Of a stretch of 64,000 nt of DNA, positions 56,092-63,168 are shown in pieces. Source of the DNA: a virus. The translations under genes and the position numbers were made by a program. The stretch is from IMG/VR virus record IMGVR_UViG_3300044681_000369, positions 62,001 to 126,000 of that record. One strand, 5' to 3'. Below the pieces are notes generated by a model. That model was not told the DNA's origin. It worked only from the letters and a program-made list of their open reading frames with translations, and ran no database searches. Position 1 is the first letter of the stretch; each line of letters opens with the position of its first letter.

Positions 56092-56682
56092 TTAGACCTT
56101 TTGGTCTTTCTCCTTGGTCCAGATTGAAAAGAATTTATCCTTATCAAACTTGATAAAGATACGATACTTCTTTACAAGACGAGCAAAGTCTTTCCAGATA
56201 AAGTCGTTTTGCATTGAAGTATCATTACTATACACGAAATCGAATAGCTTGTCAAGAACAATTACCGATTCCAATGTAATTTTTTTACCTAAGAACAGCT
56301 TTAGGACTATAGGATGCTGACCAGAATACGAGACCAGCGGATCTTGACCCGTTGCCTCAGCCCATTCCATTATGGTTCCAGCATCTTGTTTAAATTGATA
56401 TGAGAGTCTGCCCTGTAGAGTTTTCCAGTTTTCATAAACTTCTACAGATTCGGAATCAAAAACTCCGTTGTGGCCATTTACAAAGTTTGAAACGAAAAAA
56501 TTTATGAGGTCTTTCTTTTCGTACTTTTTTGCTAATTTACGAAACAACAGAATATCTTTACGCTTCATAAAAGTTTCAGGCTTACACTTTACCGCGCTTT
56601 TTGTTTTTGTTATATCGTATTGATCTGAGGTAAAGTGAAGTTTTAACGACATGTAAAGTCGATAAACATCAAAGGGTTCCAT
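56092..56682 (-). CDS. 59: Replicative helicase loader, gp59-like
   Basis: A 196-residue protein (T4 gp59 has 217), helical, loading the gp41 helicase onto gp32-coated DNA. The N-terminus (FDVYRLYMSLKLHFTSDQYDI) is the gp59 signature; further are KRKDILLFRKLAKKY and a helical C-terminus. It overlaps gp33 by one base. Order 33-59-32 as in T4. Confidence 0.92.
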   Translation of the reverse strand: MEPFDVYRLYMSLKLHFTSDQYDITKTKSAVKCKPETFMKRKDILLFRKLAKKYEKKDLINFFVSNFVNGHNGVFDSESVEVYENWKTLQGRLSYQFKQDAGTIMEWAEATGQDPLVSYSGQHPIVLKLFLGKKITLESVIVLDKLFDFVYSNDTSMQNDFIWKDFARLVKKYRIFIKFDKDKFFSIWTKEKDQKV

Positions 56683-56978
56683 CAGAGTGGCAACTTCCCG
56701 TCTTTCTTTCGTTTCAACATGTTGAGGTCTTCTGCCTCAGCACGAATCTTCTCTTTTAAGGAAGTTGTCAGTAATGACGAAACCGATTCCATTTCCAGTT
56801 CTTTCTTGACACAATAATCAACTAGTATATCCATGCAAGACAAGCCTGCCAAATATGCCTGTTTTTCAATGTATTGCGAAAACTCGGTAGCGGTATTAAA
56901 TTCCTTCGTAATTAGGAATTGTGAGCTAACCTTTTCAGACATTGGTACATCCTCTACCATAAATTCTGTCGTTGTCAT
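56682..56978 (-). CDS. 33: Late transcription co-activator, gp33-like
   Basis: A 98-residue protein (T4 gp33 has 112). The C-terminal motif MESVSSLLTTSLKEKIRAEAEDLNML is the family signature. In T4 gp33 binds RNA polymerase beta-flap and the sliding clamp to couple late transcription to replication. Its presence supports the late promoters called here. The acidic N-terminus (FMVEDVPMSEK) is typical. It has a host-type promoter upstream. Confidence 0.9.
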   Translation of the reverse strand: MTTTEFMVEDVPMSEKVSSQFLITKEFNTATEFSQYIEKQAYLAGLSCMDILVDYCVKKELEMESVSSLLTTSLKEKIRAEAEDLNMLKRKKDGKLPL

Positions 56979-57012
56979 AATATACCTTTTAAGTGTTTAA
57001 TGCGTTAAACAA

Positions 57013-57041
57013 ATAATACACTAAGTCAATCATTGTGTCAA
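57013..57041 (-). promoter_or_regulatory. Host-type promoter for gp33
   Basis: Minus strand: TTGACA (57041-57036), a 17-base spacer and TATTAT (57018-57013). The start would be about 28 bases before the gp33 ATG, which has an AAAAGG ribosome site. Confidence 0.8.
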
Positions 57042-57048
57042 GAAAAAT

Positions 57049-57600
57049 TTACACTTCTTTATAAAAAATATGTAATCCAATTTGTCTAACTCTACGAAGA
57101 CCAGACCATCCAGGATTAACATATATTGCGTGATAATATGTAGCACCTCTAGTATTGTCGGTTTCATTCCCCAACAGTACATCCCGAGATACTGTTACAA
57201 TTTCATCAAATTTTGTCGGGTTTTTAATACCGTCTGGTTTACCATCACAGTACCAGCTGAACTGGCATCTATTTCTCAATGGATTTCCATGTCTATCTTG
57301 TTTCGATTGATAAACGACATCACAGATTGTATCTGGAAATCGTTCGCTATTTTTCCTATTTAGCGTAACGTGAGCAACGGCTTTCCAGCCTTCGACCGAT
57401 TCGTTTCTAGCCTCAAAATATACATTCTGAGCAAGACAAAATAGTTCTTTCGAATCGACACTTTCAATCAATGGAGAAGGCTGCACAGTTGGTGTAGGTG
57501 CAGCCTCGAAAAATGATCCATTGTCTATATTTTTAAATAAAACGCTACTTGGTACTATACTAATCGCTAATAAGGATATAATCTTTACTGGTATTCCCAT
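57049..57600 (-). CDS. SleB/CwlJ-type cell wall hydrolase (probable endolysin) with N-terminal membrane segment
   Basis: A 183-residue protein with a hydrophobic segment at residues about 5-21 (VKIISLLAISIVPSSVLF), followed by a short linker and a SleB/CwlJ hydrolase domain (LAQNVYFEARNESVEGWKAVAHVTLNR with the catalytic Glu, then FSWYCDG, ATYYHAIYVNPGWS). The family cleaves peptidoglycan. The N-terminal anchor suggests secretion or signal-anchor-release endolysin activity. It is a second SleB-like domain besides that in the needle base gene. No holin is seen adjacent. Confidence 0.83.
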   Translation of the reverse strand: MGIPVKIISLLAISIVPSSVLFKNIDNGSFFEAAPTPTVQPSPLIESVDSKELFCLAQNVYFEARNESVEGWKAVAHVTLNRKNSERFPDTICDVVYQSKQDRHGNPLRNRCQFSWYCDGKPDGIKNPTKFDEIVTVSRDVLLGNETDNTRGATYYHAIYVNPGWSGLRRVRQIGLHIFYKEV

Positions 57601-57664
57601 TCAGATTACCTCTATATTGTTGAACTTAGGAGTTATTTAACGGTGGTTCCTCACACCGTAAGTT

Positions 57665-57672
57665 TATTTATT
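57665..57672 (-). promoter_or_regulatory. Weak candidate late promoter before the hydrolase gene
   Basis: AATAAATA on the minus strand overlapping the stop of the 63-residue gene, 65 bases before the hydrolase start. Between them is a six-base stem (ACGGTG / CACCGT). Late expression of an endolysin is expected, but the match is imperfect. Confidence 0.35.
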
Positions 57673-57859
57673 CCTCAACCTCGTTTTGAATCTTGGTGAG
57701 TTCATCAGACAACTTAGAATATGCACGTTTCATCGCCTTTACGATTTTTGCCCGCTTCTTTTCGTCTTTTGTTTCAATTTCAACATTAATGTTTGCCGAA
57801 ACTCCAGAGTATTCTCCTTCACCCGACAAAATTTCCTGAACGTAAACATTCACCGACAT
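57668..57859 (-). CDS. Small protein of unknown function after the tmRNA
   Basis: A 63-residue protein starting MSVNVYVQEILSGEGEYSG, with a GGAG ribosome site at the right spacing; the longer frame to 57913 would run into the tmRNA and is rejected. It has a beta N-terminal half and a basic helical C-terminal half (KRAKIVKAMKRAYSKLSDEL). No family recognised. It begins 24 bases after the tmRNA terminator U-run. Confidence 0.7.
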   Translation of the reverse strand: MSVNVYVQEILSGEGEYSGVSANINVEIETKDEKKRAKIVKAMKRAYSKLSDELTKIQNEVEE

Positions 57860-57882
57860 AATTATATCTCCACAGGTTAAAT

Positions 57883-57915
57883 AAAAAATGAGTGCTTCTG
57901 TTGCCAGGTGCACCC
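57883..57915 (-). terminator. Intrinsic terminator-like end of the tmRNA
   Basis: On the minus strand GGGTGC pairs with GCACTC (one G-T pair) and is followed by A and six Ts. It may also be part of a pseudoknot in the coding piece; either way it marks the 3' end. Confidence 0.6.
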
Positions 57916-58189
57916 GAACCCCGTTCTAGCCTCAAGCGGCTAGAGCATAGCCTTCGTTATCGTTGGCAGTTATAAAATGACCACTCGGTCAGCGAATCAG
58001 TCTCGGTTTGTCCTATACAATCGCAGTCGATCCTGGTTCACCCCCATCATAGATACATGGCAGCCACCGTAGCAGCCGTTCTGGATTAACATGGTGTAAA
58101 CAACATGCATAGCCATGTATCTATGGTGGAGGTGGCGGGAGTCGCACCCGCGTCCTACAATCTTTCAGTCTACGTCAACAACTGATTAG
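57890..58189 (-). ncRNA. ssrA: Circularly permuted two-piece tmRNA
   Basis: Minus-strand order is acceptor piece (about 58189-58124), intervening segment (58123-58046) and coding piece (58045 to about 57890). The acceptor piece has a T-arm GCGGG/CCCGC, acceptor strand CACCTCC, discriminator A and an encoded CCA ending at 58124. The coding piece begins GGGGGTG, complementary to the acceptor strand with a G-U at the third pair, the alanyl-tRNA synthetase identity element, then GGATCGAC as in other tmRNAs. The tag frame (57967-57932) reads ANDNEGYALAA stop, with the stop inside a TCTAGCC/GGCTAGA stem. The intervening segment carries a perfect 13-base inverted repeat. tmRNA rescues stalled ribosomes and tags the products; ANDN tags are alphaproteobacterial. 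Confidence 0.94.
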
Positions 58190-58195
58190 ATATTT

Positions 58196-58224
58196 AGTAT
58201 ATCTGAGTTTTTAGATATTGTCAA
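58196..58224 (-). promoter_or_regulatory. Host-type promoter for the tmRNA
   Basis: Minus strand: TTGACA (58224-58219), a 17-base spacer and TATACT (58201-58196). The start would be near 58189. It overlaps the region just after the exonuclease stop and shares an 18-base sequence with the exonuclease promoter. Confidence 0.85.
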
Positions 58225-58231
58225 GAGGTTT

Positions 58232-58894
58232 TTAATCATATTGACCGTTTTCGTACATTCTTTTTGACTCCAAGAGATAAGGAACATAAGGATCTCGTCT
58301 ATCAATAAAGACAAGCGGTTCTTCATCATCCACAGCCATAAGAATGACGCTACGATTGATGGGAGTGCCCGTACGTTCTTCATACATGATAGCATACGCG
58401 GCACATTGGGCAAAATATCCAGGAATGTCCTCATGTCTTTTGACACGCTTGGATGTTTTGAAGTCGATAACAGACAGTCTACCATCAAACTCGGCAATAC
58501 AGTCAACTTGACCTGCGATGCCTAGATGATCGCTGTATAGAAATGCTTCGATATAGTGAATGTTGTCAATTCGATCCAAGACAGGAGCAAACTTTGTCCA
58601 CATCTCTTTTTCAATCAAATTGAGTTCCGGCAAAGGTTCATTCTTCAGATAACTCTCACAACAAGCGTGGACCTTGGTACCACGAACGGTAGCCTTTTTG
58701 GATATCTGATCTGCTACCTCTGAGCCGACTCTTTGGCGCCACTCATAGATGGCTTTCTTGCCACGAACAGAGAGAACAGTGGTGACAGACGGATATCTGT
58801 CACCACTTTCAGTCTCATAAACCCTTGATCCATCTATGTTTTTTCTGGTCAGGGTCGGTAGTTTAGGTAAAGCCAAATGAGTAAATGTTTTCAT
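58232..58894 (-). CDS. RecB/MGME1-like exonuclease
   Basis: A 220-residue nuclease from the ATG at 58894. The PD-(D/E)xK core shows as GIAGQVDCIAEFDGRLSVIDFKTSK, with D (VDC) and DFK as metal-binding/catalytic motifs and a later Gln/Tyr helix (CAAYAIMYEE). The N-terminus (YPSVTTVLS) and RGTKVHACCESYL are typical of phage RecB-like/MGME1-type exonucleases that process DNA ends in replication or recombination. The promoter places transcription start at or near the ATG, so mRNA may be leaderless. Confidence 0.82.
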   Translation of the reverse strand: MKTFTHLALPKLPTLTRKNIDGSRVYETESGDRYPSVTTVLSVRGKKAIYEWRQRVGSEVADQISKKATVRGTKVHACCESYLKNEPLPELNLIEKEMWTKFAPVLDRIDNIHYIEAFLYSDHLGIAGQVDCIAEFDGRLSVIDFKTSKRVKRHEDIPGYFAQCAAYAIMYEERTGTPINRSVILMAVDDEEPLVFIDRRDPYVPYLLESKRMYENGQYD

Positions 58895-58900
58895 GATGTA

Positions 58901-58929
58901 ATCATAACACAAATCTACCCATTTGTCAA
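58901..58929 (-). promoter_or_regulatory. Host-type promoter for the exonuclease
   Basis: Minus strand: TTGACA (58929-58924), 17 bases, TATGAT (58906-58901). Six bases follow before the A of the exonuclease ATG. Confidence 0.85.
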
Positions 58930-58936
58930 GAGGTTT

Positions 58937-59686
58937 TTAACAGTGTCTTTCTTCGTACTCCATTCTGGCCAAGATATACTCTTTTACCAAAGCCGACCGT
59001 ACAATATCGTCTGCCGTAAATTCCACAGTTTTGAAGGACGGCATCAACTCTGCAATATGCATGAACTTGTGCAATCCAGACATATCATGTCTTTTGTATA
59101 AGTCGGTCTGTCTAAAGTCACCACAGAAAATAATTTTTGAATTATTTCCAATTCTAGTCATAATGGAATTTAGTTCCATATCTGTCATATTTTGACATTC
59201 ATCGACAATTACAATTGCATGATCTAATGTGATACCTCTAACATAAGAGGTAACCATAAAATCTATAGATTTTTGTTCCTGCAATCTTTGAAATGGCTGA
59301 ATGTGATTGAACAACTCATTACAGATTTCAATGTAAGGTTGCATATAAACTTCGGTCTTTTCTTTCTCGTCTCCAGGCAAATGACCAATTTCTCTAGATG
59401 GCACAGCCGATCGCACAATAATTACTTTTCCGTATGTTGAGCCATATAGAACTTCATCTAGGGCTTTATAGAGGGCAATATATGTTTTCCCTGTTCCTGC
59501 TACACCGTGTAAGAGTATAGCTCTGGAGTCTTTGTCGAACATGTCCCAAAATAGTTTTTGATTCAAGTTTTTTGGTGACATCCTTTTTAAGTCTGAATAT
59601 TTTACTTTGCATAGCTTACTTTTCTCTATAGTAATTTGCTCGTCTGTCGGGTGGATAACATGAAGGTTATTCTTTTTTCTCGACAT
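58937..59686 (-). CDS. phoH: PhoH-like ATPase
   Basis: A 249-residue protein. The ATG at 59686 has a good ribosome site (AAAAGGG); a longer reading frame upstream is not needed. Walker A GVAGTGKTY (about residues 63-71), Walker B AIVIVDECQN, and the segment IFCGDFRQTDL are typical of PhoH, a P-loop ATPase of helicase-like fold, common in marine phages. Function in phages is uncertain (RNA or phosphate stress). It is the first of the exonuclease-tmRNA run. Confidence 0.93.
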   Translation of the reverse strand: MSRKKNNLHVIHPTDEQITIEKSKLCKVKYSDLKRMSPKNLNQKLFWDMFDKDSRAILLHGVAGTGKTYIALYKALDEVLYGSTYGKVIIVRSAVPSREIGHLPGDEKEKTEVYMQPYIEICNELFNHIQPFQRLQEQKSIDFMVTSYVRGITLDHAIVIVDECQNMTDMELNSIMTRIGNNSKIIFCGDFRQTDLYKRHDMSGLHKFMHIAELMPSFKTVEFTADDIVRSALVKEYILARMEYEERHC

Positions 59687-60352: not shown

Positions 60353-60627
60353 TATATGTCAACCTCTTCAACGGAATCTCGAATTGCTTTAACATGCGAT
60401 TTTGCACTATTAGATAGTATATCAGATTGGTACGCAATGTCAAGACATTTCATGACATAAATTGGGTCCAAAACGCCCAAATCGTGAGAATTTAGTCTTT
60501 CCTCGGTGTTTCCAAAGGCATTTAAGCAAAAAAGCACCAGATCAACGTCTGCCTGGCTATATAGCGGAATCCTATAGTGTCGGCGTTCCGTTGTGTACTT
60601 ATTAGGAAACTTGACTACGTTATTCAT
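60352..60627 (-). CDS. Small protein of unknown function
   Basis: A 91-residue protein (NVVKFPNKYTTERRHYRIPLY). It is helical with a C-terminal helix ending VEEVDI. It overlaps both neighbours, so it is co-translated within the operon. No family recognised. Confidence 0.65.
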   Translation of the reverse strand: MNNVVKFPNKYTTERRHYRIPLYSQADVDLVLFCLNAFGNTEERLNSHDLGVLDPIYVMKCLDIAYQSDILSNSAKSHVKAIRDSVEEVDI

Positions 60628-61735
60628 GCAAGTATTTATCTGCCAACAGTTTATTCAACATCATTTTTGGACCACTATTATGGCACAAAAAGTTATAGTG
60701 TGAATACTTGTCAAACTTATTGGCAGAGTTTATTGCATCTATAAGAGTTTCATGTGAAACTTTCTCTGGAGACACTATCTCTATATAATCTGAAACTAGC
60801 TGTGAACTAATTGCGTTTTCTCCGGTTTGAGGAATTGCAATTTGTGCCGCGTTTGTCCAAAAACATTTACCCACAGTTCCCACCCCACCATGGTGTACAA
60901 CAGCTTTTGCTTTGTTGAAAATTTTATGATGAGGAACAACTTTACGAATAACTTTAAAGTTTTCGGATTCTTTGATGGAACACGGTCCTAATACTAAAAC
61001 AGGATAAGTTTCAGATATCTGCTTTGCAATTTCGTATAGATTGTTGGGAAACAAAGTATTTTTTGCTCCTGTTCCCATAGAAAATACGACTGGTCTTTTT
61101 CTTAGAAAGGACTCAACACTTTCTTGCAACTCATCTTTTTGAAGAAGAAAAAAGAAGTTAGTAAAATTGATCTTGTCAATTATATCTGAGTTTTTAATTT
61201 TGTCAACATAAAATTTTGGTATATCCAAAAATATTGGATTTGATCTAGAGAATACATCCATGGATGTGGTCTCTTCTGGAGGCAAACCAATCTCTTCTCG
61301 TATTCTGTTCCATGGTCCTATTGTGACCTCTTGAAATCTCTTTTTACCTTCGTCTGAAATAAAGTATGCTAAGGACCCGCCAAACTCAACTCTAGGAATT
61401 TTGGTAAAGTCCGAATACAATGCGGCAAGAGGCATTGTAATCGGATCTCTAATTATTAATTCTGGGGCAAAAGAATCAGCAAAATCAAAGAATTGATGAT
61501 ATGCAGTTAAATTAAATAAATGATAATCACATAAAATCTTGCCAACATCATAATCATCATATGTTTTGGTGTGATGTGTTGATACTGCTTTAAATCCGTA
61601 TTTTGTAATTTCGTTCAAAAACGAAGATTCAGTTATAAACAATACTTCATGACCCAAACTAGTTAACTCTTGGGCAAGCCTAATATAAAGAGCCACGTGA
61701 CCATATGATCCATATACGGCTAACAATATTCTCAT
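60620..61735 (-). CDS. GT-B family glycosyltransferase (MGT/UGT-like)
   Basis: A 371-residue protein. N-terminal Rossmann domain with YGSYGHVALYIRLAQELTSLGHEV; C-terminal domain with VFSMGTGAK and the donor-binding motif AVVHHGGVGTVGKCF, ending in PQTGEN-type loop. The layout is that of MGT/UGT-type transferases of sugars onto small molecules. The acceptor is unknown. It overlaps the carbamoyltransferase by ATGA, suggesting a joint pathway. Confidence 0.83.
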   Translation of the reverse strand: MRILLAVYGSYGHVALYIRLAQELTSLGHEVLFITESSFLNEITKYGFKAVSTHHTKTYDDYDVGKILCDYHLFNLTAYHQFFDFADSFAPELIIRDPITMPLAALYSDFTKIPRVEFGGSLAYFISDEGKKRFQEVTIGPWNRIREEIGLPPEETTSMDVFSRSNPIFLDIPKFYVDKIKNSDIIDKINFTNFFFLLQKDELQESVESFLRKRPVVFSMGTGAKNTLFPNNLYEIAKQISETYPVLVLGPCSIKESENFKVIRKVVPHHKIFNKAKAVVHHGGVGTVGKCFWTNAAQIAIPQTGENAISSQLVSDYIEIVSPEKVSHETLIDAINSANKFDKYSHYNFLCHNSGPKMMLNKLLADKYLHE

Positions 61736-63168
61736 GTCACAACTTTCACACCATAAAATTGCTCAAAGTCTTGAGCATCTCTTCTGTTATTTACCATAGG
61801 TTGTCCCTTAATATTCAAGCTAGTATTAAGTAACATTGGACAACCATAATTCTCATACATTTTTCTGAGTAATGTATACAGTCCTGGATGCTGATCAAAG
61901 TTTACAGTTTGTACACGGCTTGTTCCGTCACCATGAACAATAGCAGGATACTGGTCAGGAAATTTGCATCTTGCAGTAAACTGCATATAAGGGGATTCCT
62001 TAACTGGCATCTCAAAATATCGTTCTGCAAGTTCTTCCATGATAACCGGCGCAAATGGTCTAAATTTCTGTCTACGCTTAATTTCATTTACTCTATCCTT
62101 CATGTCTGATCGTGTGGGATCTGCAAGTAGTGATCTATTTCCTAAAGCTCTAGGACCAAATTCTGCTCTACCATTGGCAACACCAACCATTCCGTTTGTT
62201 ACCAGTTCGTGCATCAATTCTTTGACTGGATATGCTCCACCAATATTTTCTCCTAAATACGGACCATTCCAATCCAGATGTTCCTTGTTATTTGCCGCAA
62301 TTGCACCTAGAGAACTTCCAGCGTCACTAGGATTAGGCATAATCCAGATGTTCTTAAAGTATTTTGTGGCAATATGATTTGCACTACAGTTTAAAGCACA
62401 ACCTCCCATAAGAACAAGGTTTTCCTGATTTGGATCACTATCCTTTGCTCGTTTCAGAAGTTTCTCAAACTCTTCTTCATACACCTTTTGGGCGGCAGCG
62501 GCAAGATCATATGGATGTGGTTCAGAATCACCTTTAGGATTCCACCATCTACAGCCCCGATGAAGATTTTGTGTGTCGTATAATTCCCGAGTTTCCGCAT
62601 AAAATCTATCTGGATCACCATACGCAACCATTCCCATAAGAATATACTCATCTTCGTTCGGCTTCAAAGATACTCTGTCGGTAATTGCTGAATAAAAAAG
62701 ACCTAGTGATTTTGGATATTTCATTCTCCAAACTTTTTTGAGTTTGTTTGCATGACAGTGCCATATGGATGCAGTATCAAACTCACCAATAGCATCAATA
62801 ACAAGAGTTGTTGCTGATACCATTCCTGAAGTAAAATAACCCGCGGCCGCGTGTGACTCATGATGGTCAGCCATCTTAATCTTCACACCGGTAATTCCAT
62901 ATTTTGCAAGATAGTCTTTAGGATGAAAATAGACATATCCCATGCCACAAACAAATCTACGAAGCATTCTCATCCAAGAATTTTCATACCAATGAATTAC
63001 ATCGGGCTTACCAAATTGAAGCGCGGCAGAAATTAGAGAGGGACACAGGTCCTTATCATTTTTCTTTCCACTATATCTTTCGGAATGAGATGCAAACAAA
63101 ATCTTACTCCCGCTAACCACGGTAAGCGATGCATCATGGGCGCCAGCAGAAATTCCCCACTCAATCAT
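61732..63168 (-). CDS. NodU/TobZ-family carbamoyltransferase
   Basis: A 478-residue protein. The N-terminal ASKHA-like (Kae1-like) domain has SAGAHDASLTVVSG and the metal-binding histidines in ADHHESHAAAGYF, with LVIDAIGEFDT and VLMGGCALN. The C-terminal domain has AEFGPRALGNRSLLADP and KFRPFAPVIMEE. It moves a carbamoyl group from carbamoyl phosphate (via carbamoyl-adenylate) to a hydroxyl. Length is shorter than typical NodU (about 560). Neighbours are a GT-B transferase and a radical SAM protein. Confidence 0.93.
   Translation of the reverse strand: MIEWGISAGAHDASLTVVSGSKILFASHSERYSGKKNDKDLCPSLISAALQFGKPDVIHWYENSWMRMLRRFVCGMGYVYFHPKDYLAKYGITGVKIKMADHHESHAAAGYFTSGMVSATTLVIDAIGEFDTASIWHCHANKLKKVWRMKYPKSLGLFYSAITDRVSLKPNEDEYILMGMVAYGDPDRFYAETRELYDTQNLHRGCRWWNPKGDSEPHPYDLAAAAQKVYEEEFEKLLKRAKDSDPNQENLVLMGGCALNCSANHIATKYFKNIWIMPNPSDAGSSLGAIAANNKEHLDWNGPYLGENIGGAYPVKELMHELVTNGMVGVANGRAEFGPRALGNRSLLADPTRSDMKDRVNEIKRRQKFRPFAPVIMEELAERYFEMPVKESPYMQFTARCKFPDQYPAIVHGDGTSRVQTVNFDQHPGLYTLLRKMYENYGCPMLLNTSLNIKGQPMVNNRRDAQDFEQFYGVKVVT

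Follow-up and report, generated by a model that had tools for sequence, protein, structure and literature searches.

The window, a stretch of 64,000 nucleotides covering positions 62001–126000 of a 140,970-base virus record, carries on its minus strand a circularly permuted tmRNA gene in which an acceptor piece is followed by a 78-nt intervening segment (ITS) and then by the coding piece. We judge it likely that this is a functional phage-borne two-piece ssrA gene whose RNA would be processed and charged by the host and would perform trans-translation during infection. As far as sequence can establish them, the form of the gene, its tag, its alanine signal and its precursor helix are secure. 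Two-piece tmRNAs in marine T4-like phages were already published in 2022, with 53 two-piece cases of which 50 were aquatic (PMC9004378), and the window gene is a further example of that type. The additions made here to the published kind, all drawn from sequence comparison, are a putative precursor helix that covaries around an invariant mismatch, tallies of the G3-U70 pair and of the tag ends, synteny with a nuclease gene, and an upstream promoter-like element.

Gene structure, alanine signal and tag

Covariance searches (cmscan) gave matches to two Rfam families: RF01849 (alpha_tmRNA; 112.4 bits, E = 7.6e-30), for which model positions 1–355 span 58228–57887, and RF04321 (tmRNA_permuted; 98.7 bits, E = 5.5e-18), for which the match starts at 58183. 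Both scores lie far above the gathering cut-offs, which are 50 bits for RF01849 and 47 bits for RF04321. ARAGORN also reported a permuted tmRNA in the window, with the tag ANDNEGYALAA* and a 3' tRNA domain at 58162–58124. The parts of the gene are as follows.

58124–58189, minus strand: tmRNA acceptor piece, comprising the T-arm, the 3' acceptor strand and an encoded CCA ending at 58124; the 5' end is approximate (ARAGORN, RF04321)
58046–58123, minus strand: ITS of 78 nt, which processing of the precursor is expected to remove
57887–58045, minus strand: tmRNA coding piece, starting with GGGGGUG at 58045; its 3' end is placed approximately, near 57887 (RF01849)
58019–58045, minus strand: 5' tRNA-like half, comprising the 5' acceptor strand, the D-loop region AACCAGGAUCGAC and the start of the long stem
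57932–57967, minus strand: tag frame GCC AAC GAT AAC GAA GGC TAT GCT CTA GCC GCT TGA, encoding ANDNEGYALAA*
57925–57944, minus strand: hairpin UCUAGCC-GCUUGA-GGCUAGA, whose loop contains the stop codon of the tag
58039–58134, minus strand: predicted precursor helix with 23-nt arms at 58134–58112 and 58061–58039 (from the fold, and from covariation in relatives)

The first-pass annotation of this DNA had proposed a complete, circularly permuted, two-piece tmRNA gene, and the significant matches to RF01849 and RF04321 in the permuted order bear this out. Its 78-nt spacer, encoded CCA ending at 58124 and GGGGGTG start at 58045 proved exact to the base, the strand, which had been left unstated, being minus. 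Pairing between the two acceptor strands had been set beforehand as a test; GGGGGUG does pair with CACCUCC, and the G-U noted at the third pair is G3-U70.

The acceptor stem of the window gene (GGGGGUG/CACCUCC-ACCA) thus contains G3-U70, which is kept in 42/42 distinct phage tmRNAs across seven acceptor-stem sequence pairs. As this pair is the alanine identity signal, the phage tmRNAs should be chargeable with alanine. At the level of the tag, an LAA end is found in 29 of 32 distinct phage tag coding sequences and an ALAA end in 22 of the 32, and the LAA-ending tags use five leucine codons and four codons at each alanine. Retention of these ends with varied codons argues that the phage tmRNA tag is selected as protein and, by the same token, that the phage genes are working. 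The window tmRNA itself has the resume codon expected of the family, and its short tag frame closes with a hydrophobic degron.

The state of the tag also bears on the proposal that the phage RNA is a decoy, binding SmpB or AlaRS and thereby blocking host trans-translation. There is a precedent in the tmRNA of mycobacteriophage DS6A, which consists of the tRNA-like domain only; a comparable molecule acts as an inhibitor of tmRNA, possibly through titration of SmpB (PMC4131195). No SmpB was detected in the phage record, so the window phage would depend on the SmpB of its host, and a phage that brings no SmpB of its own is also what a decoy would suit. However, an intact, codon-varied tag is not something that a decoy needs, and the window gene has a complete tag frame that ends in ALAA and is kept through synonymous codon change in its relatives. 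On these grounds we regard a decoy as unlikely and retain a working, tag-encoding tmRNA as the preferred reading.

Intervening segment and precursor helix

The predicted precursor helix is made up of the 7-bp acceptor stem, A73-U(-1), a C74·A(-2) mismatch, C75-G(-3), A76-U(-4) and 12 further pairs. Its arms are 91% complementary, the two departures being the G3-U70 wobble and the C74-A(-2) mismatch, and the helix region folds at z = -5.1 relative to shuffled sequences. Rfam RF01849 models no pairs within the ITS. The 13-base perfect inverted repeat that had been described at first is present, but it corresponds to the outer part of the 23-nt arms; since the leader pairs with A73, C75 and A76 as well, the repeat is longer than that description allowed.

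Among 30 distinct phage genes with an ITS of at least 35 nt, C74·A(-2) is unpaired and A(-2) invariant in every case (30/30), and the flanking leader pairs are formed in 27 (A73-U(-1)), 27 (C75-G(-3)) and 29 (A76-U(-4)) of them. At the next 11 helix positions, 93% of cells are paired compared with 58% after arms are swapped between phages (z = 12.8). An alignment of 28 distinct phage rows, in which the acceptor stem was set constant and so contributes nothing to the covariation test, has 91.6% of cells paired against 60.9% when shuffled, 123 double-change cells against 38, and a covariation score of 0.81 against 0.21. Both sides have changed at 12 of the 14 helix pairs in these rows, and pairing falls to 34–52% when the helix partner is slid out of position. 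Covariation and the fold z-score together rule out a chance inverted repeat, and the covariation across 28 phage sequences strengthens the earlier reading of the repeat as a processing hairpin. The apical loop of the phage ITS ranges from a few nt to more than 100 nt.

A helix of this kind is not exclusive to phages, as some Alphaproteobacteria show shorter versions that share its register and its mismatch. One alphaproteobacterial MAG contig, chromosomal-looking and near the L21 gene (L105/L204), has a tmRNA whose ITS is 139 nt long and which shares the long helix and the mismatch of the phage genes. A 3-nt ITS is found in the phage tmRNA at L054 5696–6000 (CCA-TAT-GGGGGTG), with L053 and L057 belonging to the same family.

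E. coli RNase P has A(-2)U(-1) as its optimal leader dinucleotide, and the enzyme is inhibited when two leader positions form pairs with RCCA beside the cleavage site (PMC9433436). The invariant C74·A(-2) mismatch sits at the expected RNase P site and would fit this leader rule; because leader-RCCA pairing is inhibitory (PMC9433436), the remaining A73, C75 and A76 pairs could slow the enzyme. The covarying hairpin with its invariant mismatch amounts to a concrete prediction for the cutting of permuted tmRNA precursors. No description of the helix with its invariant mismatch was found in the literature searched, and the original two-piece tmRNA papers (PMC16621, PMC516066), which fell outside its scope, may draw an ITS stem.

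Genomic neighbourhood and proposed mechanism

The T4-like context recognised in the first-pass annotation was borne out by gp32, gp59, a gp33-type late-transcription coactivator and PhoH adjoining the tmRNA. By gp32 the closest isolate is Melnitz, at 56%. The features flanking the gene are these.

58232–58894, minus strand: PD-(D/E)XK exonuclease, 220 aa, the upstream neighbour and the syntenic marker for finding relatives
58196–58224, minus strand: promoter-like TTGACA-N17-TATACT, shortly before the acceptor piece, agreeing with the sigma-70 consensus at 11/12 positions
57668–57859, minus strand: small ORF, 63 aa, without a family match, just past the coding piece and with a plausible ribosome-binding site
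56682–56978, minus strand: gp33-type late-transcription coactivator, located downstream, as it is in the gene order of Mosig and Melnitz

The promoter-like element ends approximately 7 nt before the predicted start of the acceptor piece. When the span 25–110 nt upstream of the acceptor domain was scanned in 42 distinct phage genes, a match of at least 10/12 was found in 11 of them, nearly all at the same place, and the mean best score was 8.7 compared with 7.6 in shuffles. As the scan has this chance background, the promoter is best taken as supportive rather than proven.

We propose that the gene is transcribed, probably, from its own sigma-70-type promoter. In the precursor, both acceptor strands would fold together with the ITS ends as one long helix, a step for which covariation provides support. 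Host RNase P would then cut between U(-1) and G1 (58046/58045), helped by the unpaired A(-2), after which exonucleases could shorten the remaining ITS as far as CCA; the two resulting pieces would stay joined by the acceptor stem. Host AlaRS would be expected to charge the phage tmRNA through G3-U70 and, together with host SmpB and EF-Tu, the charged RNA could rescue ribosomes that stall on mRNAs which infection is expected to break, the stalled products gaining the ANDNEGYALAA degradation tag. Ribosomes would in this way stay available for phage synthesis and truncated proteins would be disposed of. Phage-borne tmRNAs indicate that it pays a virus to carry a means of ribosome rescue. The first-pass annotation had also raised the idea that the RNA might stand in for a host RNA inactivated by the phage. 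Since 101 of 117 sampled SAR11 genomes already have a permuted tmRNA of their own, the benefit of a further one is not obvious.

One use proposed for the Melnitz gene is the tagging and degradation of host proteins early in infection, with recycling of their amino acids (PMC9004378). The sigma-70-type promoter-like element of the window gene suggests early expression and is to that extent in favour, but a tmRNA acts on stalled ribosomes and makes no choice of host proteins as such. We consider host-protein recycling quite improbable as the main role of the window gene, and prefer rescue of stalled ribosomes.

Known systems, distribution and origin

Permuted two-piece ssrA genes like that of the window are carried by Melnitz (a Methylophilales phage, MZ577097) and Mosig (a Pelagibacter phage, MT647606), both Kyanoviridae (PMC9004378). 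In all three the tmRNA is flanked by the genes for the PD-(D/E)XK nuclease and for the late-transcription coactivator, and the ITS extends the acceptor stem; the window differs in having extra genes between the tmRNA and gp33. The tags differ (GEDNFALAA and ANDNYVPVDYALAA versus ANDNEGYALAA), as do the lengths of the ITS (44 and 142 versus 78 nt). A glutamine riboswitch accompanying the tmRNA has been reported for both isolates, its authors calling the linkage common, not defining. We confirmed it just downstream of the Melnitz tmRNA; in Mosig it was not found within the 8 kb examined, though reported there, and no riboswitch was found beside the window tmRNA (56500–59500). A manA RNA motif lies near the tmRNA region of Mosig (L002 7371–7578).

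With the alphaproteobacterial two-piece tmRNA (RF01849, Caulobacter type) the window gene has in common the gene order, the encoded CCA, G3-U70, the resume region, an ANDN-type tag and a downstream conserved block, whereas its ITS and helix are longer and its coding piece is shorter. SAR11 tmRNAs are unlike it, having an ITS of 5–16 nt without the helix, and other tags. The tmRNAs of mycobacteriophages such as Bxz1, of Streptomyces phages and of Bacillus phage G are standard, one-piece and not permuted. These are phage-borne, as is the window gene, and those of Streptomyces phages have annotated complete tags, but they belong to other hosts and lineages, and the match is confined to 31–46 nt of the acceptor region.

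Relatives were sampled by nearest nuclease, giving 80 viral contigs, some of which are near-duplicates. Nine of the 80 were too short to tell, and in 57 of the 71 testable contigs a permuted tmRNA follows the PD-(D/E)XK nuclease on the same strand, at a distance of 28 nt or less in 38 of the 57. In the other 14 no tmRNA was found downstream of the nuclease, although 1.5 kb or more of sequence was available there. Phage C48C1 has the nuclease with no tmRNA found nearby, and in three cyanophages the nuclease directly adjoins the coactivator, with no tmRNA found between them. The precursor hairpin could be used for finding more permuted tmRNAs, of which several stand unannotated in public phage records: we found such genes in Alcaligenes phage vB_Af_QDWS595, Acinetobacter phages BUCT628 and vB_AbaM_3098, and Stenotrophomonas phage Mendera. 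These genes, at L003 1440–1816, L004 1440–1773, L243 1950–2323 and L245 1184–1520, pass the cut-off of the beta-type model, although gammaproteobacterial hosts normally have a one-piece tmRNA.

In a tree of the mature tmRNA sequence the window gene joins that of L005 (100/98), to which it is 76% identical, and lies within a set of 18 rows, every one from a phage (98/85). The 46 phage rows as a whole stand apart from 121 bacterial rows (99/100), in an alignment that is short, with long branches and a bacterial sample selected through a single sequence pattern, with SAR11 added. The tree is without true beta or cyanobacterial members, the RF01850 search having given no betaproteobacterial genome above cut-off; because these members are missing, and because L003, L004, L243 and L245 match the beta model, a single phage group carries a caveat, and a common lineage for all phage permuted tmRNAs is possible. 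The emphasis here differs from that of the published analysis, in which the Melnitz gene was grouped with those of Alphaproteobacteria (PMC9004378).

That the gene is a recently captured host ssrA or a non-functional passenger is very unlikely: phages commonly integrate at host ssrA genes, and many temperate phage records contain short ssrA-like matches, but the window gene is complete, has a conserved place in the T4-like core and compensated helices, and groups with phage tmRNAs instead of the 121 sampled bacterial ones, and recent capture from SAR11 in particular is disfavoured by this separation, by the 5–16-nt SAR11 ITSs and by their other tags. For a working phage gene, we put forward a tentative history in which it may belong to an old phage-associated ssrA group with a fixed place in T4-like marine phages, found also in phages of typically one-piece hosts. 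The common specialised precursor hairpin of this group, a 12–14 bp extension of the acceptor stem that pairs most of ACCA and always leaves A(-2) unpaired, would let RNase P begin to process a viral rescue RNA that differs from the one of the host. Conservation across dozens of marine phages, the kept alanine signal and degron, and a grouping separate from SAR11 make the idea of a phage-supplied rescue RNA testable.

A SleB-like cell wall hydrolase (Hydrolase_2) is encoded at 57049–57600 of the window, between the tmRNA and the gp33 coactivator; Mosig instead has a GH108-type hydrolase upstream of the nuclease. At 60620–63168 of the window, a glycosyltransferase-like gene adjoins a NodU/Nol-type carbamoyltransferase, probably forming a modification module.
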